Assembly (NCBI RefSeq): GCF_003315485.1
Contig: NZ_QNSE01000001.1
Span: 186,001-250,000, forward strand
Direction: 5' to 3'
DNA: 64,000 bases
Origin: Marinomonas rhizomae
GTDB lineage: Bacteria > Pseudomonadota > Gammaproteobacteria > Pseudomonadales > Marinomonadaceae
Shown in pieces: positions 3,728-13,792 of the stretch. Numbering within the stretch: the first letter of the stretch is position 1; each line of letters opens with the position of its first letter. The notes below the pieces were generated by a model that made no database searches, was not told where the DNA came from, and saw only the letters and a program-made list of their open reading frames with translations. The translations under genes were made by a program, and so were the position numbers.

Positions 3728-5779
3728 TTACATCACACGTTGGCCAGGTTTTGCACCAGTGTGCGGTTCTAGTAGATAAATTTCTTCACCGCCAGGCCCA
3801 GCGGCTAAGACCATGCCTTCTGACATGCCAAACTTCATTTTACGTGGTGCCAGGTTTGCCACCATCACCGTGTGTTTGCCTTCTAAGTCTTCAGGCTTAT
3901 AAGCTGACTTGATGCCAGAGAATACGGTACGAGTTTCACCGCCGATGTCTAAGGTTAATTTTAGTAGTTTATTGGCTTTCTCAACATGCTCAGCTTTAAC
4001 GATCAAAGCAATGCGTAAATCTACTTTCGCGAAGTCATCAAAATTGATTTCGGCTTCGATTGGCTCTTTGCTCAGTTCAGTTTCCGCTTGCGTTGGTTGC
4101 GCCGCTTCTTTTGCTGCAGCTTCGGCCGCCGCTTCCACTTTACCTTCTTCGATAATGGCATCGATTTGAGTCTGCTCAATACGACCCATTAGCGGCTTGA
4201 ATTTGTTTACCGTGTTGCCAAACAATAATTCGCTACGGTTATCCCAAGTTAGCTCTTTGCCAAGGAAGGCTTCGGCGTCGGTTACCATGTTTGGCATGAC
4301 GGGTTTTAGATAAGTGGCTAAAATACTGAACAAGTTCAAGGCAACCGTACAAACGTCCTGAACTTTCGGTAAAGTCGCTTCGTCTTTTGCTAACACCCAA
4401 GGCGCTTGAACGGCAATGTATTCGTTTGCTACGTCAGCAAGGCGCATGATTTCACGAATGGCTTTACCGTATTCGCGGCTCTCGAAATGCTCAGCAATCA
4501 CATCGCCAGCGTCGATGAAGGATTGAATCATGTCCGCTTCGCTAACGTCAGTCGCCAATTGACCATCGAACTTCTTGTTGATGAAGCTGGCGGTACGGCT
4601 GGCAATGTTAACCACCTTGCCAACTACGTCAGAGTTTACTCGTTGCAAGAAATCGCCTAGGTTAAGGTCGATATCATCAACACGAGAGTTTAGTTTAGCG
4701 GCATAGTAGTAACGCAAGTATTGCGGGTCTAAATGCTTCAAGTAAGTACGGGCTTTAATAAAAGTACCGCGCGATTTAGACATCTTTTCGCCGTCAACGG
4801 TAACGTAACCGTGTGCATTAACCCCTGTTGGCGTGCGGTAGCCTGCACAATGCAACATAGCTGGCCAGAACAAGGCGTGGAAGTTGATAATGTCTTTACC
4901 AATAAAGTGATAAAGCTCAGCATCAGAATCTTTGCTCCAGTAATCATCAAATTCTAAACCTTCCGTGCGATCACATAAGTTTTTAAAGCTCGCCATGTAA
5001 CCAATCGGTGCGTCTAGCCAAACGTAGAAGTACTTGCCCGGCGCATCTGGGATTTCAAAGCCGAAGTAAGGTGCATCACGGCTGATGTCCCATTCTTTTA
5101 ATCCAGAATCTAACCATTCAGATAGCTTGTTCGCAACTTGGTCTTGCAGGGTGCCGCTGCGCGTCCATTCTGCTAGGAAATCTTGGAAATCTGGTAATTT
5201 GAAAAAATAATGCTCAGAATCTTTTTCAATCGGCGTCGCACCAGAATAAACAGAGCGAGGGTTGATCATTTCCATTGGCGTGTAAGTCGCAGAACAGACC
5301 TCACAGTTGTCGCCGTATTGATCTTCTGCTTTACACTTAGGGCAAGTTCCCTTGATGAAACGATCTGCAAGAAACATTTCTTTTTCTGGATCGTAGGCTT
5401 GCACGATAGAGCGAACAGCGATTTTGCCATTCTCACGAAGAGCCGTGTAAATGCTGTTTGATATCTCGCGGTTTTCGTCAGAATGAGTAGAGTGGTAATT
5501 GTCGTAACCAATCAGGAAGTCATTAAAGTCCGCCATGTGCTCTTGGCGAACTCCGTCGATTAACTCTTCTGAGGTAATACCATTCTGCGCGGCTTTAATC
5601 ATAATTGCTGTACCGTGTGCATCATCCGCACACACTGCTGTACAAAGATGGCCGCGCATTTTTTGAAAACGCACCCAGATATCGGTTTGGATGTGTTCCA
5701 GCATATGCCCCAAATGGATAGAACCATTGGCATAAGGAAGGGCGCTGGTGACTAAAATTTTGCGTTGCGTTTGTGCCAT
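3728..5779 (-). CDS. metG: Methionyl-tRNA synthetase
   Basis: Charges tRNA-Met with methionine in the cytoplasm. The open frame reaches back to 5824, but the family start [19 protein letters not shown] begins at the ATG at 5779, which has a CAGG-type ribosome site; this gives 683 residues. The HIGH-type motif is [11 protein letters not shown] near residue 22. A zinc-knuckle insertion follows with CPKC and CEVC pairs (residues ~146-163). The KMSKS motif is KMSKSRG near residue 337. The C-terminal ~110 residues form the tRNA-binding/dimerisation (EMAP II-like) domain, preceded by an Ala/Glu-rich linker. The gene is divergent from apbC, an arrangement common in gammaproteobacteria. Confidence 0.96.
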
Positions 5780-7725: not shown

Positions 7726-7735
7726 TTTTCAGTTT

Positions 7736-8048
7736 CTTCCCCTTTCTTCAAGGGGAAGACGGAAGATGGGGTTAATCTCTTCTTTGGTTTCCATTCAAAC
7801 GCTTTGTATTCCCAACCTTTATTCCGCTCTGCTGAGCGGGTAACTTTTGTCCAGATCCACAAAAGTAACCAAAAGGTCTCTTTATCGGGCTATCGCCCAA
7901 ACGTCTCATTCATATTGTTTAATACTGGTTTAGCAACACGATTTTTGCCGTAAGGCATAGATTGTTCTTGTGGATTCTAGGAAGAGTGTTTTTAACTGAC
8001 CCTGAAATTCCATAGGGTCGCGCAACTTCGTCGCGTCGAACTGACTTC
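7736..8048 (+). repeat. Left inverted copy (A) of a ~310-bp intergenic repeat
   Basis: About 313 bases that recur as reverse complement at 12835-13145 with only scattered differences, aligned by eye along the whole length. Internal landmarks are a GGGC-GATA-GCCC type mini-hairpin, an arm with CTTCCCC/GGGGAAG at the outer end, and a GTCGCG/CGCGAC region at the inner end. No open frame is shared between the copies, so it is noncoding. Partial copies lie at about 11446-11655 and 12566-12720. It marks the left border of the accessory island, immediately downstream of dcd. Confidence 0.85.
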
Positions 8049-8202
8049 ATGTGTGATGCTGTTTTTTGTAGGGCGAGATGAGGGAGGTACGACCGCTTTC
8101 TGTAATATAAGAGTGCCGCTGAAAGCGAAGCTTTCTTTGTATTGTTGGTGGCTTTTGTAACCTGATTGTATATATTTTTAGGCTAATAAATGTACAGTCT
8201 TG
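8049..8202. other. Spacer between repeat A and the TenpIN promoter
   Basis: AT-rich noncoding sequence with no open frame of note. It contains a short GTAGGGCGAGATGAGG segment and a GAAAGCG-AAGCTTTC palindromic stretch, but nothing assignable. Confidence 0.5.
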
Positions 8203-8231
8203 TTGACATTAACGTCTGAGATAATGATACT
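8203..8231 (+). promoter_or_regulatory. Predicted sigma-70 promoter of the TenpI antitoxin RNA
   Basis: A consensus -35 TTGACA (8203-8208) is followed after exactly 17 bases by GATACT (8226-8231; 4 of 6 with TATAAT). A start near 8238-8240 would place the RNA 5' end a few bases before the first antitoxin repeat at 8247. This is the expected position for a type III toxin-antitoxin promoter. Confidence 0.7.
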
Positions 8232-8246
8232 AAACATGTAGATGAC

Positions 8247-8348
8247 GTGGCGGTAGAGGCATCCCCACATGAAAAACACCAACCTCATTTGAAGTCGCGG
8301 CGGTAGAGGTATCCCCGCAATAAATAGCATCAACCTCAATGGAAGTTC
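8247..8348 (+). ncRNA. tenpI: Type III antitoxin RNA (TenpI-like), two tandem ~50-nt repeats
   Basis: Two direct repeats start at 8247 and 8297. Each opens with a hairpin whose outer arms differ between copies but stay complementary (GTGG/CCAC in the first, GCGG/CCGC in the second), a compensatory change that points to a structured RNA. The hairpin loop contains GAGG, and a downstream ACCTC in each unit can pair with it, giving an H-type pseudoknot like those of known type III antitoxins. The array sits between a sigma-70 promoter and a terminator directly ahead of the toxin gene. Two repeats is a small number for this class. Confidence 0.85.
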
Positions 8349-8353
8349 TACTC

Positions 8354-8390
8354 AAAAAGCCCTTATTTTATAAGGGCTTTTTGTTTTTTA
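8354..8390 (+). terminator. Intrinsic terminator between antitoxin RNA and toxin
   Basis: The arms AAAAAGCCCTTA (8354-8365) and TAAGGGCTTTTT (8371-8382) are perfectly complementary with a 5-base loop, followed by GTTTTTT. In type III toxin-antitoxin loci such a leaky terminator sets the excess of antitoxin RNA over toxin mRNA. Here it lies about 15 bases before the toxin start codon. Confidence 0.9.
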
Positions 8391-8404
8391 TAACAAGGAT
8401 GGTT

Positions 8405-8848
8405 ATGAAAATTAGGCTGTTAACAGAAGCTGCTTACAATCGAATAATTATACTAAAAGAAACCATGAGCAAAAAAGATCGTGGTTATGGTGTGATTCCA
8501 ATCAAGATTAAAAATATCACCTTTGCGATTCCATTCAGAAGCAATATGGCTCATAAACATGGGTTTAAAACCATATTCCACAATGGTGTATGGAATGGCG
8601 TTGACTACTCCAAAGCCATCATCATCACAGAAGACGACCTACAACCCAAAGCCTTTAAACTTCGTAGTGAAGCGGAATACCAAAAAGTAAAAAATAACAA
8701 AGACAAAATTCAACGGCAATTTGAAAAATACGTAAACGACTATGTCTCACAGGCCAAATTGGGAAAGCTCCCAAATCTACAGCGCTTTGGTTACACCACA
8801 TTGATAAATTACCATGAAGAGTTTGGAGTAGGGGATAGCAGTATATAG
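8405..8848 (+). CDS. tenpN: Type III toxin-antitoxin system toxin, TenpN family endoribonuclease
   Basis: Predicted endoribonuclease toxin that cleaves RNA, including its own antitoxin precursor, and is held inactive by the processed antitoxin RNA. The start is the ATG at 8405, six bases after an AAGG ribosome site; the longer open frame from 8339 would run through the terminator and is not used. This gives 147 residues. The features resembling TenpN are a KIRLLTEAAYN N-terminus, the block RGYGVIPIKI, FAIPFRSNMAHKHGFKT and the DYSKAIII segment, followed by a Lys-rich helical C-terminal half. The layout promoter - RNA repeats - terminator - toxin matches the family exactly. Family assignment is from remembered conservation, not a search. 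Confidence 0.85.
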   Translation: MKIRLLTEAAYNRIIILKETMSKKDRGYGVIPIKIKNITFAIPFRSNMAHKHGFKTIFHNGVWNGVDYSKAIIITEDDLQPKAFKLRSEAEYQKVKNNKDKIQRQFEKYVNDYVSQAKLGKLPNLQRFGYTTLINYHEEFGVGDSSI

Positions 8849-8995
8849 GCGCTTATTATAAGGAAACGTTATTAGTAAAACGGGTCAGGTCATAAGGTCT
8901 GAAAGGCGATCATTGCCTAATGCCCAGCATTCGAGTAAAAAGAATGATACTGCCATAAAAGATAAAGGCAAATCCCCTATATAGGCAACACAGCC

Positions 8996-9053
8996 GTTCA
9001 ACAGTGGGTTATAGCCATGGTTTCGCTACTGTATAACCGCTTAGTCGTTATGT
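8996..9053 (+). other. Possible integron attC-like site (weak)
   Basis: GTTCAAC (8996-9002) fits the R'' consensus RYYYAAC, and GTTATGT (9047-9053) fits the common R' form. Between them GGTTATA (9007-9013) and TATAACC (9032-9038) form a stem around an 18-base loop. The site ends 20 bases before the next gene, as cassettes do. Pairing of the spacers is poor, so this is the least certain of the three attC-like sites. Confidence 0.4.
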
Positions 9054-9072
9054 TTCCACAAGGAGGAAGTGA

Positions 9073-9852
9073 GTGAGCTTCGATATAGTTGAATTTACAG
9101 GCCGGTTAGAGCATGTAATACGAGGTTCCATAAATGGTGTCTCTGGGCATGAGTGGGATGAAGATTTTATTACGATAAATCTTCTCAGAGATATTCGAAA
9201 TGAATTATCAGGATCAAGGTTTACTGGCAGGGATAGTAGAGGCAGCATTGATTGGCAGATTTATAAATTAAAAGGAACGTTCGAAAATAACTATGGCGAT
9301 GTAGCTCTGGTTGTAAATATAAATTACAAGGATGGAACATCAATTAACGGAGCGGCTTTTTTGGAAGCCAAAAAACGGGATTGGCGAAAGACAACCTTTG
9401 GTGCAATGAAGATCCCACAAGCAAAAAGAATTCTTAAAAATGCACCAAGATCACAATATCTGCTTTATGACTATGAGGAAATAACTAATTTTTTGAATGG
9501 TTCGTTGCACCTAGAAGAAATAAGTCCCTTCTATCATAGTAGAGGGTTGCAAGTTCCATTTGCGCCAGTAACTAGGGCTGTGTGCGTTCCACTCAATCTT
9601 GCAGTTGCTACAGCATCTAAAGATACAATTCTTTATCGTCATAGTGTGCCATTATCCCAAATGCTATCAAACCGATACTTTCAAGGGCTGGACTTAGAGT
9701 TTGACGATCAGGCAAAACAGATAGCCACTGGTTTTTTGACAAAATTTGGTCTTCCAAAATATGTGGTAAAAGTAGACATCTCAGCTAACGAAGTAGATGG
9801 CAAAGACCAAGATCTTAGAGTGAATCAACAACATTACTTGCAATTAGATTAA
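9073..9852 (+). CDS. Uncharacterised protein with a PD-(D/E)XK nuclease-like core (cassette-borne)
   Basis: A 259-residue soluble protein that I do not recognise as a named family. It starts at a GTG preceded by a strong AGGAGG six bases upstream. The first half shows the order of elements of a PD-(D/E)XK nuclease: a helix with WDEDFITINLL (Glu), a strand with GDVALVVNI (Asp), a strand with FLEAKKR (Glu-x-Lys) and a helix with PQAKRI (Gln). The C-terminal half is unassigned. It is followed within two bases by an attC-like site, so it is probably a gene cassette. A nuclease, possibly for defence, is an inference from the motif order only. Confidence 0.55.
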   Translation: MSFDIVEFTGRLEHVIRGSINGVSGHEWDEDFITINLLRDIRNELSGSRFTGRDSRGSIDWQIYKLKGTFENNYGDVALVVNINYKDGTSINGAAFLEAKKRDWRKTTFGAMKIPQAKRILKNAPRSQYLLYDYEEITNFLNGSLHLEEISPFYHSRGLQVPFAPVTRAVCVPLNLAVATASKDTILYRHSVPLSQMLSNRYFQGLDLEFDDQAKQIATGFLTKFGLPKYVVKVDISANEVDGKDQDLRVNQQHYLQLD

Positions 9853-9853
9853 A

Positions 9854-9926
9854 ACATAACAAGTGACATGTTGCCGAACTGGTTTTCCGCTGCGCTCCAA
9901 ACCAGCCGAAAATGCGGGCGTTTATA
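9854..9926 (+). other. Integron attC-like recombination site
   Basis: Starts directly after the preceding gene with ACATAAC (R''-like, 9854-9860) and ends with GGGCGTTTATA (R'-like, 9917-9926). The centre is a hairpin with CTGGTTT (9879-9885) and AAACCAG (9899-9905). The size of about 73 bp and the short gap to the next gene suit a cassette attC. R' carries an extra T compared with the usual GTTATA, so it may be degenerate. Confidence 0.6.
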
Positions 9927-9971
9927 ACACTTCAAACAGCTGCATCAAAAATATGAATATAAGGATTTAAT

Positions 9972-11306
9972 ATGAAGATAGTTGTACCAGAAGTTCAGAT
10001 CTCTAGTGACTGTGGATTTCGTCCGGATATAGATATATTTAAACGAAAAGGCTTTGGTGAAAGACTTGCTAACCTTGTTGAAAATTCAGGTGGAAGTCCT
10101 GTTGTAGCATTGGATTCTGGCTGGGGTGAGGGTAAAAGTACATTTATAAAAATGTGGCGTGGTTATCTTGAAAATCACAGAGAACCGGAAATGATATCCA
10201 TTTACTTTGACGCTTTTGAAAATGATTATCAGAAAGACCCATTTTTGACGTTGGCATCTGAAATTTATCAACTCATCAAAGTCAAAGATGAAGAAACGAA
10301 GACAAGGTTTAAGGATAAAGCTGCAAAGGCAGCTAAGTCTCTTTTCAGAGGGGCTTTGAAAGTGTCTGTTAAAGTAGGTACAGCAGGTCTTGTTGATGGT
10401 AGTGCTGTTGATGTGGCGGAAAAAGAAATATCGAACTTGGTTGCAGATCAAGTCGATGATTTGATAAAAGAAAGATTTGAACATGCAGAAAAAGATAAGT
10501 TGGCTCTCAAAGAGTTTAGGAATTACCTGTCAGATTTTGCTAGTGAAATTAATGGTGGTAAGCCGATCGTATTTATTATTGATGAACTTGATCGCTGTAA
10601 GCCTGATTTCGCTTTAGAGCTACTCGAACAAGTGAAGCACTTGTTTTCTGTTCAAGGTATAACTTTCCTTCTAGTTACCAATAGAGAGCAATTAGAAGAA
10701 TCAATCAAATCCAAGTATGGTCAAGGAATCGATCCTACAAACTATCTTCACAAGTTCATCAATGTATGGTTAACGATGCCTCGTGCTTCAAGTGAATATG
10801 ACGATCATGGTTGTCAGTTTTTAAAAAACGCTCTTTCTTCAATGAAAGAGGAAAATGAAGTTATATTAAACAATGAGTCAGTTTCTGTGCTGAATGATAT
10901 CGTTAAGTTTTATCAACCATCATTCAGAGAGATAGAACGTATATTGTCTTATTTCTCCATCATAAATAATATGTTAGGCAGTCAACAATACACTGAAAAT
11001 TATCAGTATATAATTGCAATGGTGTGTTACCTGAAAGCCTGTCAACCAAATTGTTTAAAATTGGTAAATGGGAAGTTAAATTATAGCTATATTATCGATG
11101 CTGCTAGGTTAGACGAAATCGGTTCCTCTGAGTCATATTCTTCTCTTCAATATGTTAATAAGCTTGTACGCTTCGACTTAGCTGACGAAGATACACGAAA
11201 ACAAATGTTGGAAGAAAAGGAGATTCAAATGGTTCGAATGGGGCACACACCACAAAACTTGCTCAAAACAATTAGTTCATGGCTGTCGGAAATTAACCCT
11301 GGCTAA
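9972..11306 (+). CDS. KAP family P-loop NTPase (cassette-borne)
   Basis: A 444-residue NTPase of the KAP (Kidins220/ARMS-PifA) STAND-like group. Walker A is GWGEGKST near residue 52. Walker B lies in KPIVFIIDELDRCKP near residue 200, and the family signature continues with LELLEQVKHLF and the sensor region LLVTNREQL. The region around residues 125-150 is Ala/Gly-rich but not clearly membrane-spanning. KAP NTPases include PifA, which excludes phage T7, and recur in predicted defence loci, so a role in phage resistance is plausible but not shown. The gene is AT-rich compared with its chromosomal neighbours and sits between two attC-like sites. The ribosome site is AAGGA. Confidence 0.85.
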   Translation: MKIVVPEVQISSDCGFRPDIDIFKRKGFGERLANLVENSGGSPVVALDSGWGEGKSTFIKMWRGYLENHREPEMISIYFDAFENDYQKDPFLTLASEIYQLIKVKDEETKTRFKDKAAKAAKSLFRGALKVSVKVGTAGLVDGSAVDVAEKEISNLVADQVDDLIKERFEHAEKDKLALKEFRNYLSDFASEINGGKPIVFIIDELDRCKPDFALELLEQVKHLFSVQGITFLLVTNREQLEESIKSKYGQGIDPTNYLHKFINVWLTMPRASSEYDDHGCQFLKNALSSMKEENEVILNNESVSVLNDIVKFYQPSFREIERILSYFSIINNMLGSQQYTENYQYIIAMVCYLKACQPNCLKLVNGKLNYSYIIDAARLDEIGSSESYSSLQYVNKLVRFDLADEDTRKQMLEEKEIQMVRMGHTPQNLLKTISSWLSEINPG

Positions 11307-11311
11307 CGGTG

Positions 11312-11438
11312 TTATAACAGAGCATTTAAGAGTGATTCCCAACGCTTGTCATTTTAAATTCAGGGTTAAGTTTTGTGTTTATAGCGCAACGGTTTAGGCT
11401 CGTGGTAACGTTGCTCACACCTTAATGCGACGTTAATA
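11312..11438 (+). other. Integron attC site (VCR-like size)
   Basis: A 127-bp imperfect palindrome starting 6 bp after the KAP stop codon. R''-like TTATAAC is at 11312-11318 and R'-like GTTAATA at 11432-11438. Inner arms GCATTTAAG (11322-11330) and CTTAATGC (11421-11428) pair with one extra base in the left arm, the extrahelical base that sets strand choice in attC sites. The internal wording (AAGAGTGATTCCCAACGC, later GCTCACACCTTAATGC) closely resembles Vibrio-type attC sites. No integrase or attI is in the window, so this is an orphan cassette site. Confidence 0.8.
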
Positions 11439-11445
11439 GCCCCTT

Positions 11446-11655
11446 CGACGCAATCCCGATTGCGCTACCCTATTGAGTTTCTGGGTCATTGTTTGACGAG
11501 CTATCTCTTACTAAATAACCAATCTATGCCTTACGATAAAAGTCGTGTTGCTAGGCGCGATGTTTAACAATGTGAATGAGACGTTTGGGCGATAGCCCGA
11601 AAAAGAAATTAACCCTATCCTGACCTTACCCTTGGAAGACAAAAGGGGATGACTA
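11446..11655 (-). repeat. Partial repeat copy (C) upstream of the TacAT pair
   Basis: Shares blocks with the right copy at 12835-13145, in the same orientation: a TTCTGGGTCATT block, the segment from CAATCTATGCCTTACGATAA through GAATGAGACGTTTGGGCGAT, then a jump to the CCTTGGAAGACAAAAGGGG end. The middle part, which in the full copies contains ACCTTTTGGTTACTTTTGTG, is missing. It abuts the attC site at 11438. Confidence 0.7.
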
Positions 11656-11686
11656 ACTCTAATCTTCCGTCAAGTATCCGTACAAG

Positions 11687-11715
11687 TTGAGTGTGTTTAA
11701 AATTTGCACTATAAT
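11687..11715 (+). promoter_or_regulatory. Promoter and probable autoregulatory operator of the DUF1778-GNAT pair
   Basis: The -35 TTGAGT (11687-11692) and a perfect -10 TATAAT (11710-11715) are 17 bases apart. ATCCGTACA-type words occur both upstream of the -35 (about 11676-11684) and after the start point (about 11735-11743), and CGGAATACATCCG (11728-11740) is a short inverted repeat. Paired sites flanking the promoter fit repression by the ribbon-helix-helix antitoxin. Confidence 0.7.
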
Positions 11716-11754
11716 CTCTAATATTGCGGAATACATCCGTACATAGGAGGGGCT

Positions 11755-12024
11755 ATGGCAACGGCACGTTTAGATATCCGTCTTGATGAAGAGATCAAGG
11801 CAAAAGCTGAAAAGGCATCGGCTTTACTTGGTTTAAAAAGTCTTACTGAATATGTCGTGAGGCTTATGGACGAAGATGCCACTCATGTTATCGAAGAGCA
11901 TGAAAGTATTGTGGTTAAAGACAGCGTCTTTGACGAGTTTATGGCGGCGTGTGATAAGGCAAAAGCACCAAATCAAGCTTTGCTTGAAGCGGCCAAATTT
12001 ACAGGTGAGAGTGGTATTAGGTGA
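11755..12024 (+). CDS. DUF1778 (TacA-type) ribbon-helix-helix antitoxin
   Basis: An 89-residue protein with the RHH N-terminus ARLDIRLDEEIKAKAEKASALLGL typical of DUF1778 antitoxins, here cited in short as RLDIRLDEEIK at residues 4-14. The C-terminal part (about residues 55-89) would wrap the GNAT toxin. The AGGAGG ribosome site is four bases from the ATG. Its stop overlaps the toxin start (GTGA). By family analogy it neutralises the toxin and represses the shared promoter. Confidence 0.88.
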   Translation: MATARLDIRLDEEIKAKAEKASALLGLKSLTEYVVRLMDEDATHVIEEHESIVVKDSVFDEFMAACDKAKAPNQALLEAAKFTGESGIR

Positions 12025-12551
12025 GTTGGGGTAAAGAGTTCGTAGAGCTTAGTAAATCAAAGCATGACCGAAATTCATTCGACTGTGGTGAAGAAGAGCT
12101 CAATACATTTATCAAAACTCAAGCAGCAAAGCACATGCAAGCAGGTATTAGCCGAACGATGGTGTTACCCAGTGCTCAGCCGCTGTTAAATCAAAAATAC
12201 GCTATTTGTGCGTTTTATAGTGTTGCCCCGAGTTCTATCAGCCGCGAAACATTACCGACACGACTAGCAAATAAACTTCCTAGATATCCCATCCCCGTTT
12301 TTCTTTTGGCTCAATTGGCCGTGCACAAAGAATTTCATGGTTCAGGACTCGGAAAGGTGAGTCTAATTCGTGCGCTGAAGTATTTGTGGGAAGTGAATCA
12401 TCACATGAGAGCGTACGCGATTATTGTGGACTGCCTGACAGCTTCCGCTCAAGCGTTTTATACGAAGTTCGGCTTTGAAGTACTGTGCGAACATAATGGG
12501 CGTGTTCGTATGTTCTTACCTATGAAAACGATAGAACAGCTTTTTAATTAA
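12021..12551 (+). CDS. GNAT acetyltransferase toxin (TacT/AtaT type)
   Basis: A 176-residue GNAT enzyme. Family members acetylate the amino group of aminoacyl-tRNA and so stop translation. The acetyl-CoA-binding motif is QLAVHKEFHGSGLGKVSL (near residues 98-115), with the Q/R-x-x-G-x-G/A pattern HGSGLG. The C-terminal YTKFGFEV segment carries the catalytic-region tyrosine found in this class. Translation begins at a GTG that overlaps the antitoxin stop by four bases. The pair lies between two partial repeat copies in the accessory island. Confidence 0.88.
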   Translation: MSWGKEFVELSKSKHDRNSFDCGEEELNTFIKTQAAKHMQAGISRTMVLPSAQPLLNQKYAICAFYSVAPSSISRETLPTRLANKLPRYPIPVFLLAQLAVHKEFHGSGLGKVSLIRALKYLWEVNHHMRAYAIIVDCLTASAQAFYTKFGFEVLCEHNGRVRMFLPMKTIEQLFN

Positions 12552-12565
12552 TAGGCCATGAATCT

Positions 12566-12720
12566 AACCATGTGAATGAGGTGTTTGGACGATAGCCCAA
12601 AGAAGAAATTAACCCCATCCTAACCTTCCCCTTGGAAGACAAAAGGGGAAGGGACTAAGCCACCGACCAGCAGGGCTGAATAAAGGTCGTGAATCCAAAG
12701 TGTTTGAATGGAATCTAAAT
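12566..12720 (-). repeat. Partial repeat copy (D) downstream of the TacAT pair
   Basis: Blocks matching copy B in the same orientation: ATGTGAATGAGGTGTTTGG, the CCTTGGAAGACAAAAGGGG segment, then CAGCAGGGCTGAATAAAGG and GTGTTTGAATGGAA, but in shuffled order compared with B. Together with copy C it flanks the DUF1778-GNAT genes as direct repeats. Confidence 0.65.
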
Positions 12721-12834
12721 AACGCGTCGGGCTAAAGCCGCGACCTACAAAAGACCACAAGAGCTTGATTCCCACTTTCGTTGGCACTTGGCCCCTTGTG
12801 GGAAATGACGTGTCTTCGGCCTATTTACACTCTG
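12721..12834. other. Noncoding spacer inside the repeat cluster
   Basis: Contains a GTCGGGCTAAAGCCGCGACC palindromic stretch and a TTCCCAC...GTGGGAA inverted repeat (about 12769-12804). An open frame starting in this stretch has no coding features. Confidence 0.5.
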
Positions 12835-13145
12835 GAAGTCAGTTCGACGCGACGAAGTTGCGCGACTTTATGGGGTTTCAGGGTCATTAACAGAAAGCCT
12901 TTTTCGAACAGCAAGATCAATCTATGCCTTACGATAAAAAATCGTGTTGCTAGACGTGATGTTTAACAATGTGAATGAGACGTTTGGGCGATAGCCCGAT
13001 AAAGAGACCTTTTGGTTACTTTTGTGGATCTGGACAAAAGTTACACGCCCAGCAGGGCGGAATAAAGGTCAGGAATCCAAAGCGTTTGAATGGAACCAAA
13101 GAAAACCCCATCCTCCGCCTTCCCCTTGGAGGACAAAAGGGGAAG
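12835..13145 (-). repeat. Right inverted copy (B) of the ~310-bp intergenic repeat
   Basis: Reverse complement of 7736-8048. The match is uninterrupted for long blocks, for example the stretch through GGGCGATAGCCCGATAAAG and on through TTTTGTGGATCTGGACAAAAG. It closes the accessory island on the right, about 120 bp before the Nudix gene. Overlapping open frames on both strands here are by-products of the repeat. Confidence 0.85.
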
Positions 13146-13264
13146 GGACTAACCCCACGCCCAGAGGGGCGGAACCAAGCTTGCAAACTAGGAATCGTTG
13201 AGAAGTAACAGATATACTTGCAGATCAAAGAAAACTAACCCAACCACACGAAGTACCCCAATCT

Positions 13265-13792
13265 ATGCGTTTACTAAAATCCTCTATCCACCCAAGTATC
13301 GAGTCTGTCGATCAGTCTTCCTTTTTACGCCTTGCTGCCCGTGGGATTATTTTAAATGGTGAGGATGTTTTAATGCTGTATACCCAGCGTTACGATGATT
13401 ACACCTTGCCGGGTGGTGGGATTGATGAGGGTGAAAATCAAGTGGAAGGTTTGATTCGAGAGTTAACGGAGGAGACGGGTGCGCGGAATATTCGTAATGT
13501 CGAGGCGTTTGGTTTGTATGAGGAGTTTCGGCCTTGGAATAGGGATGGTTTTGAGGTCATGCAGATGAAGTCTTATTGCTACACCTGTGAAATTGACGAG
13601 CAGTTAGGCGAGACGAGCCTGGAAGATTACGAGGTCAATAATGGTATGAAGCCAGTGTGGATTAATGTTCACGATGCGATTAAACATAATCTCGATACGA
13701 TTAAAAACAGCGATAAAAAAGGGATGTCGATTGAGCGGGAAACCTTTTTGTTATGCTTGATTAGGGATGAGTTACTGGTGGTTGTAAATTGA
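13265..13792 (+). CDS. Nudix hydrolase
   Basis: 175 residues with a perfect Nudix box (GGIDEGE, seven residues, RELTEETGA) at about residues 58-80, which binds metal and hydrolyses a nucleoside diphosphate linked to another moiety. The N-terminal AARGIILNGEDVLMLYTQ and YTLPGGG segments are standard for the fold. The substrate cannot be told from sequence. No strong ribosome site precedes the ATG. It is the first gene after the right island repeat. Confidence 0.88.
   Translation: MRLLKSSIHPSIESVDQSSFLRLAARGIILNGEDVLMLYTQRYDDYTLPGGGIDEGENQVEGLIRELTEETGARNIRNVEAFGLYEEFRPWNRDGFEVMQMKSYCYTCEIDEQLGETSLEDYEVNNGMKPVWINVHDAIKHNLDTIKNSDKKGMSIERETFLLCLIRDELLVVVN

Follow-up and report, generated by a model that had tools for sequence, protein, structure and literature searches.

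A chromosomal TenpIN-family toxin-antitoxin locus of Marinomonas rhizomae, a likely closing helix around its antitoxin array and toxin-free TenpI-like RNA units in phages

Do two short repeats lying in front of a small gene in Marinomonas rhizomae form, together with that gene, a toxin-antitoxin system, and what might the same RNA be doing where phages carry it without the toxin? The repeats stand in a 64,000-nucleotide stretch of contig NZ_QNSE01000001.1 (assembly GCF_003315485.1, positions 186,001 to 250,000 of the forward strand), here called the window and numbered from its first letter, and an earlier note made from the letters alone had read positions 8203-8848 as a type III locus resembling TenpIN. 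Here, we conclude that this is very probably a TenpIN-family type III toxin-antitoxin locus, the pseudoknot RNAs of which are predicted to restrain the toxin. On its own the window locus is another TenpIN; the parts that appear new are a likely helix closing the repeat array, termed P0, and units of closely similar RNA in phages.

The open reading frame of 147 residues at 8405-8848 is present as described, and its product matches the NCBI TenpIN equivalog model at 121.4 bits, above the cut-off of 90, over residues 6-139 of 147, this being the profile search that the earlier note had proposed. The best alignments of the predicted fold are to five solved type III toxins, as expected of the ToxN/AbiQ/CptN fold, and family model and fold together support the TenpIN-like type III name. 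The window toxin also keeps the columns that are invariant across 29 aligned relatives (P0013, P0030 and P0031 being excluded from alignment A1). Its frame is open from an upstream ATG at 8339 as well, and the start at 8405 was chosen because of the AAGGA that sits five bases 5' of its ATG and because of the relatives. Directly 5' of the gene and on the same strand lie two tandem copies of the repeat, separated from the toxin by an intrinsic terminator, both of these being features by which TenpIN is recognised. The elements are laid out as follows.

8203..8231, plus strand: promoter-like site, TTGACA-17-GATACT, agreeing with the consensus at 10/12 positions (from the sequence)
8238..8242, plus strand: 5' strand of the closing helix P0, GUAGA, ~7 bases past the -10 element (from compensatory changes in relatives)
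8247..8286, plus strand: antitoxin unit 1, with stem 1 at 8247-8250/8265-8268 plus 8252-8253/8263-8264 and stem 2 at 8256-8259/8283-8286 (predicted pseudoknot)
8297..8337, plus strand: antitoxin unit 2, with stem 1 at 8297-8300/8315-8318 plus 8302-8303/8313-8314 and stem 2 at 8306-8309/8334-8337 (predicted pseudoknot)
8347..8351, plus strand: 3' strand of P0, UCUAC, abutting the 5' side of the terminator
8353..8389, plus strand: intrinsic terminator at the antitoxin/toxin boundary, a 14-bp stem at 8353-8383 followed by a T run
8395..8399, plus strand: ribosome-binding-site-like AAGGA (from the sequence)
8405..8848, plus strand: tenpN toxin gene, 147 residues (from the open reading frame, family model, relatives and predicted fold)

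Most of what the earlier note had said of this layout holds. TTGACA (8203-8208), a 17-nt spacer and GATACT (8226-8231) lie where it had placed a promoter, and two direct repeats of ~50 nt are present (n=2, starts 8241 and 8291, spacing 50, 79% identity over 34 nt). Their hairpin arms differ and yet stay complementary, being GTGG/CCAC in the first unit and GCGG/CCGC in the second; the loop GAGG pairs with a downstream CCTC in both; and the terminator, with its stem and T run, is in place, two such sites being found in the window against 0.6 expected from shuffles.

The same RNA unit was also found ahead of TenpN genes on chromosomes, plasmids and phage genomes. It opens with stem 1, followed in most cases by a single bulged base, and continues through GG/CC and two further bases to a loop strand of 4 bases; after another 2-4 bases come the closing strand, an A-rich segment of ~13-15 bases and, last, the sequence with which the loop strand pairs. 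Pairing of loop strand and partner (stem 2) is complete in 50/50 distinct toxin-linked units, drawn from 58 such units (the copies or cut-short loci L008-L012, L018, L021, L046 and L049 stand outside the unit counts), as against 28.8% of 3288 swaps between loop types, a rate that arises because the swap control permits G-U pairs and four offsets; with Watson-Crick pairs only, the figures are 43/50 units and 1.6% of swaps. The loop strands include GAGG, GAGU, GGAU, GGGU, GAAC, GGUA, GGCG and GGAA, and the anchor of L042 and, for L013.2 and O_L212, the stem-2 register were placed manually. Across alignment A4, which holds the 14 units of one loop spacing from 8 loci (two out-of-register rows being retained), pairing holds in 95.7% of cells, and in 20 cells both sides have changed, where shuffles average 6.4; covariation scores 0.321, and no slid version exceeds 0.109. 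The covariation that the earlier note had taken as a sign of RNA structure is thus seen in both stems across relatives, and the repeat RNA is predicted to fold as a pseudoknot.

A covariance model, R1, was trained on 30 toxin-linked units, odd-stem units and L039 being set aside; its match to the window is circular, the window's own units being in the training set. Over 350 genomes of the class, under strict filters and with 18 candidates scored per genome, R1 matched only in the genome from which the window comes. Neither the window nor the units from 13 phage loci matched an Rfam family (release 15) at the gathering threshold. Exactly two units, with two R1 matches each, occur in all 29 compared toxin-linked loci of the window's repeat type, although many of these units had also trained R1, and the count is without the other-sequence arrays L022-L033, L043, L051-L053 and L055-L057. 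The remark that two repeats is near the lower limit therefore had to be abandoned: two is the rule for this repeat type.

Other array layouts were noticed. On plasmids of Enterococcus, Staphylococcus and Jeotgalibaca (L052, L053, L055) a two-unit array lies upstream of the toxin on the opposite strand. It has a promoter-like site to itself and is followed by a stem in L052 and L055, seemingly a divergent type III layout and not the usual co-transcribed one (orientation was judged by eye, and the stem is itself palindromic). At L031/L032 and L056 a T run stands, by eye, directly 3' of the second stem of the last pseudoknot, such that antitoxin and terminator seem to be fused in one structure.

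P0 pairs bases at the predicted transcript start with bases just 5' of the terminator, its strands being GUAGA/UCUAC in the window and GUGUAGAU/AUCUACAC, GGCAGU/ACUGCC, GUAGCU/AGCUAC, GUAGCC/GGCUAC, GUAGUUA/UAACUAC and UAGAUAGC/GCUAUCUA in relatives. It was counted in 15/21 representative arrays, the window included. A Watson-Crick helix of at least 6 bp is present in 14/21 arrays as against 45/420 swaps (which include pairs within the same P0 class), and a P0 score of at least 6 likewise in 14/21, whereas 1000 shuffles average 3.4 such arrays and never exceed 8; the full complement appears in 1/176 flanks of another class. Compensatory changes give three pair types at pair 5 and two each at pairs 2 and 6. 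The near copies L016, L036 and L058 were removed from this test, and L003-L006 and L054 were not entered. As the search for a -10 element covered only 3-6 nt 5' of P0, the spacing between the two is not independent evidence. P0 is likely a helix, judging by covariation in the relatives, and is weak in the window sequence alone; it offers a possible structural reason for arrays staying at two units.

Several findings weigh against a working TenpIN locus of this structure. The promoter-like site is no rarer than chance, with 2 matches in the window against 2.4 expected from shuffles, and A4 holds no excess of further pair types (8 against 8.9 in shuffles). P0 was not seen in six of the 21 representatives (L007, L034, L035, L039, L040 and L019, the last having a 5-bp helix in another register and being scored as without P0), and the window's own P0 has only 5 bp, a length that arises in 89/420 swaps, for which reason P0 in the window rests on the relatives. 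No solved TenpIN structure was found by sequence. Relatives of the window toxin occur in only 4/48 genomes of the genus, its own included, the other 44 giving no match, and in L006 (Marinomonas arctica) the toxin is split over two frames with both antitoxin units intact, so that the toxin may be dispensable. The last two findings would suit a degenerate or silent TenpIN remnant, of the right ancestry and with expression or activity lost. We think this unlikely for the window, where the toxin frame is open and retains the invariant columns and both pseudoknots pair fully; toxin copies are moreover 94-95% identical in four Marinomonas genomes, the other three aligning with the window's over residues 1-142 at 94% identity.

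How would a TenpIN locus of this kind work? TenpN would cut RNA, and the two repeats would hold it inactive. If TenpN behaves as the toxins of ToxIN and CptIN do, it would cleave the precursor RNA at the edges of the units and assemble with the two units into a ring. As in CptIN, the ring would most likely hold two molecules of each partner, although this 2:2 composition is only a guess, given that no solved structure was found. Before cutting, P0 probably ties the array ends together, shields the 5' end and fixes the number of units at two, and the terminator would pass only part of the transcripts to the toxin gene. Upon shut-off of host transcription by a phage, the RNA would be exhausted first and the freed toxin would abort the infection; phages, in turn, would counter by carrying the unit without the toxin, mostly near tRNA genes.

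Comparison with known systems draws on excerpts of the papers cited here (the literature searched also took in PMC10853763, PMC13096335 and PMC5449768, companion texts of PMC5086642). TenpIN of Photorhabdus luminescens is a type III toxin-antitoxin system that aborts phage infection (PMC5377504, PMC5086642), with which the window locus shares toxin family, array-terminator-toxin order and chromosomal location, whereas a closing helix goes unmentioned in the excerpted descriptions. In CptIN of Eubacterium rectale there are two repeats, and the 45-nt RNA folds as an H-type pseudoknot of which the first loop is very short and the second long and A-rich; one CptI repeat is fully antitoxic (PMC4627078). 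The window locus is alike in its two repeats and in a predicted H-type-like pseudoknot with loops of this kind. ToxIN (Pectobacterium, Bacillus) and AbiQ share the toxin fold, operon layout and pseudoknot RNA, whereas their repeats measure 34-36 nt in 2.8-5.5 copies (PMC5086642) and those of the window are spaced at 50 nt in two copies, outside the ToxIN repeat length.

Patterns written for the unit also matched viral contigs that bear it without a TenpN match, and further patterns added loci. In the strictest scan, which made no use of the toxin, 15 viral stretches were found, four with TenpN and two units and 11 without a TenpN match. These stretches bear on whether RNA and protein belong together at all, the alternative being a stand-alone structured RNA, such as a riboregulator of the downstream gene, beside an unrelated RNase-like protein. 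Repeats that lie in a gene's 5' leader and end in a terminator do resemble an attenuator, and the 11 toxin-free stretches would suit such an RNA; it is nonetheless highly improbable, given that both the family model and the predicted fold point to a type III toxin and that the four remaining stretches (L076, L077, L079 and L230) carry TenpN behind a two-unit array. The 29 toxin-linked loci were not counted against it because they had been collected through the toxin.

With the locus read as TenpIN, the toxin-free units can be considered in their own right. R1 finds units in 14/14 phage loci at E values of 6e-13 to 1.8e-8, the best among 27 decoy sources being 0.033. By our own grouping of near-identical sequences the phage loci form 12 lineages, namely the Aeromonas group, L060, L064, L067/L071, L072, L081/L087, L082, L212-L214, L218, L221, L224 and L229. 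The TenpIN family model, which does match in the genome of the window, gave no match in 14/14 phage records searched whole, some of them fragments, covering 11/12 lineages; L229, outside that search, gave no match to our own TenpN profile. A BLAST search with one L050 unit returned 25 records, corresponding to 18 distinct Aeromonas/Stenotrophomonas phages of 160-190 kb, with matches at unannotated places and E values of 4e-4 to 2e-2. Three of these phages, all of Aeromonas, were examined, of which phiAS4 and phage 25 are assigned to Straboviridae, the family of T4. In all three the unit lies inside a tRNA cluster between tRNA-Pro (5') and tRNA-Thr (3'), enclosed in a 107-109-nt element with a closing helix of up to 19 bp, and varies only at unpaired bases and the edges of stem 2, the paired core being constant.

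This setting is widespread, with a unit within 300 nt of a tRNA gene in 8/12 phage lineages (5 nt in L081, 9 in L212, 12 in L082 and 282-285 in L072 and L060). No tRNA was present on the stretch examined for L218, L221, L224 or L229, where PHROGs matches nearby include a terminase (L221), an integrase (L224) and a DNA polymerase exonuclease subunit (L218). Proximity was seen at 0/120 decoy sites, an imperfect control of mostly GC-rich DNA; a better one is the 21 toxin-linked phage loci, which carry no tRNA genes on stretches mostly of ~3 kb, several of the phage-unit loci being longer. An intact TenpI unit close to tRNA genes is in keeping with a standing decoy that would be matured along with the tRNAs. 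It seems to us evenly balanced whether phages defeat TenpIN in this way. Toxin-free TenpI pseudoknots placed among the tRNA genes would be released by the enzymes that mature tRNAs and, by binding the freed TenpN, would make abortive infection fail.

The main rival for the phage units, which we hold possible if rather doubtful, is that they are decaying remnants of whole TenpIN loci once acquired, and not functional mimics. Decay would account for an incomplete stem 2 in three of 14 units (L060.2, L082 and L221; L229 not counted), for the first L060 unit, which R1 scores weakly at decoy level (E 0.041), and for the two-unit arrays of L060 and L229, the latter close to a contig end; a toxin-free two-unit array is found in a Marinomonas genome (G774) as well. 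Yet stem 2 is complete in the other 11 units, those of the Aeromonas phages have kept their paired core, and the tRNA setting of the eight lineages is shared by none of the decoys or toxin-linked phage loci. For most lineages decay is therefore disfavoured, on account of the tRNA setting and the kept pairing.

There is a precedent for the proposed decoy in pseudo-ToxI of phage PhiTE, where the phage itself carries a type III antitoxin RNA that can suppress the toxin; the wild-type phage holds 1.5 ToxI-like repeats and no full unit, and escapes ToxIN after repeat expansion (PMC3475682). The present units are similar in being antitoxin-like RNAs in phages without a detected toxin, and differ in being TenpI and not ToxI, in being complete already and in lying mostly near tRNA genes. 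RNA anti-CRISPRs, single CRISPR repeats with which phages block Cas complexes (PMC10651486), are alike in that phages carry a lone defence-RNA repeat without the protein, whereas their target is CRISPR-Cas and the putative target here is a toxin-antitoxin system. Among the matches listed, the literature searched held neither TenpI-like RNA in phages nor the closing helix; the paper defining TenpIN (NAR 2012) and preprints lay outside it, and a prior mention is possible.

Some further observations touch the phage units. In L209-L211 a hairpin just 5' of the unit carries GAAGAATTG and can, by eye, compete with the outer helix of the element. Two plasmids of Vibrio parahaemolyticus of ~40 kb (CP130858, CP099948) each hold a single match to the Aeromonas phage unit, with 94% identity over 36 nt, maybe a phage-plasmid mimic, and the tRNA cluster of L060 that bears the toxin-free TenpI array also holds a GOLLD RNA at 4235-4691 (Rfam RF02032, 159 bits). 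T4 rnaC and rnaD are small stable RNAs beside the T4 tRNA genes, for which we know of no function; as mimics they were rejected, a 5.5-kb T4 tRNA stretch giving no R1 match at E <= 1 and no likeness by eye. Named phages searched with two other phage unit types gave a best E of 1 for one and no match for the other, so that these two types rest on IMG/VR contigs alone.

Several patterns were discarded or kept as controls. The first returned 29 stretches, most of them GC-rich and without a second stem, which were dropped by eye; from the 16 stretches of CCCCACGTTAAAAACNBAA, L217, L220, L222 and L223 were dropped, and from the 6 of a sister pattern L225, all being without the stem and looking protein-coding. 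A reversed pattern gave 2 stretches, and the pattern over 398 genomes gave one match, L208, without a TenpN match. GCGGYGGTAGN{5,8}CCCCGC matched at least 120 loci in viral contigs, with a TenpN match in 0/120 among the matches listed, and served for decoys only, 16 in the R1 decoy test and all 120 in the tRNA-distance control.

Around the window locus, the order mrp-dcd-TenpIN is conserved in the four Marinomonas genomes and downstream content varies, which makes TenpIN the left edge of a variable stretch. In the window TenpIN is followed by a KAP ATPase, a TacA/GNAT pair and a NUDIX gene at 13265; L003 has an HSP90-like ATPase, L005 and L006 have other genes, and L004 has, almost directly after TenpIN, a relative of the window's NUDIX gene (likeness by eye). 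The variable stretch runs in the window from dcd to the NUDIX gene (7726-13265); no two of the Marinomonas genomes compared have the same cargo there, and short dispersed repeats recur around it, for example at 7783-8138, 11444-11649 and 12668-13000. At 9073-11306 the KAP-family ATPase, which matches the PADLOC candidate PDC-S20 at 296 bits, stands beside a protein of 259 residues that has no Pfam match, and the two genes may together be a defence candidate. Contig 13 of G757 (Marinomonas arctica type) holds a split toxin reading frame with intact antitoxin units, and this genome has an additional, distant TenpIN (L013). The two-unit TenpI-like array of G774 (L236), where a relative of the window toxin was not found, is a possible bacterial anti-addiction RNA.

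The window locus thus adds a clean chromosomal TenpIN, and its unit gives a covariance model that detects the antitoxin by itself and opens the question of how phages disarm type III systems. PhiTE is the only antitoxin-RNA precedent in the literature searched, and must first expand an incomplete copy; antitoxin mimicry can be put directly to the test in those named phages that hold whole units near tRNA genes, and such units offer a reason besides codon supply for part of the content of phage tRNA clusters. If the standing decoy is true, it would be the toxin-antitoxin counterpart of RNA anti-CRISPRs, ready-made in T4-related Aeromonas phages and other lineages, and phage tRNA clusters would be depots of anti-defence RNAs in general.
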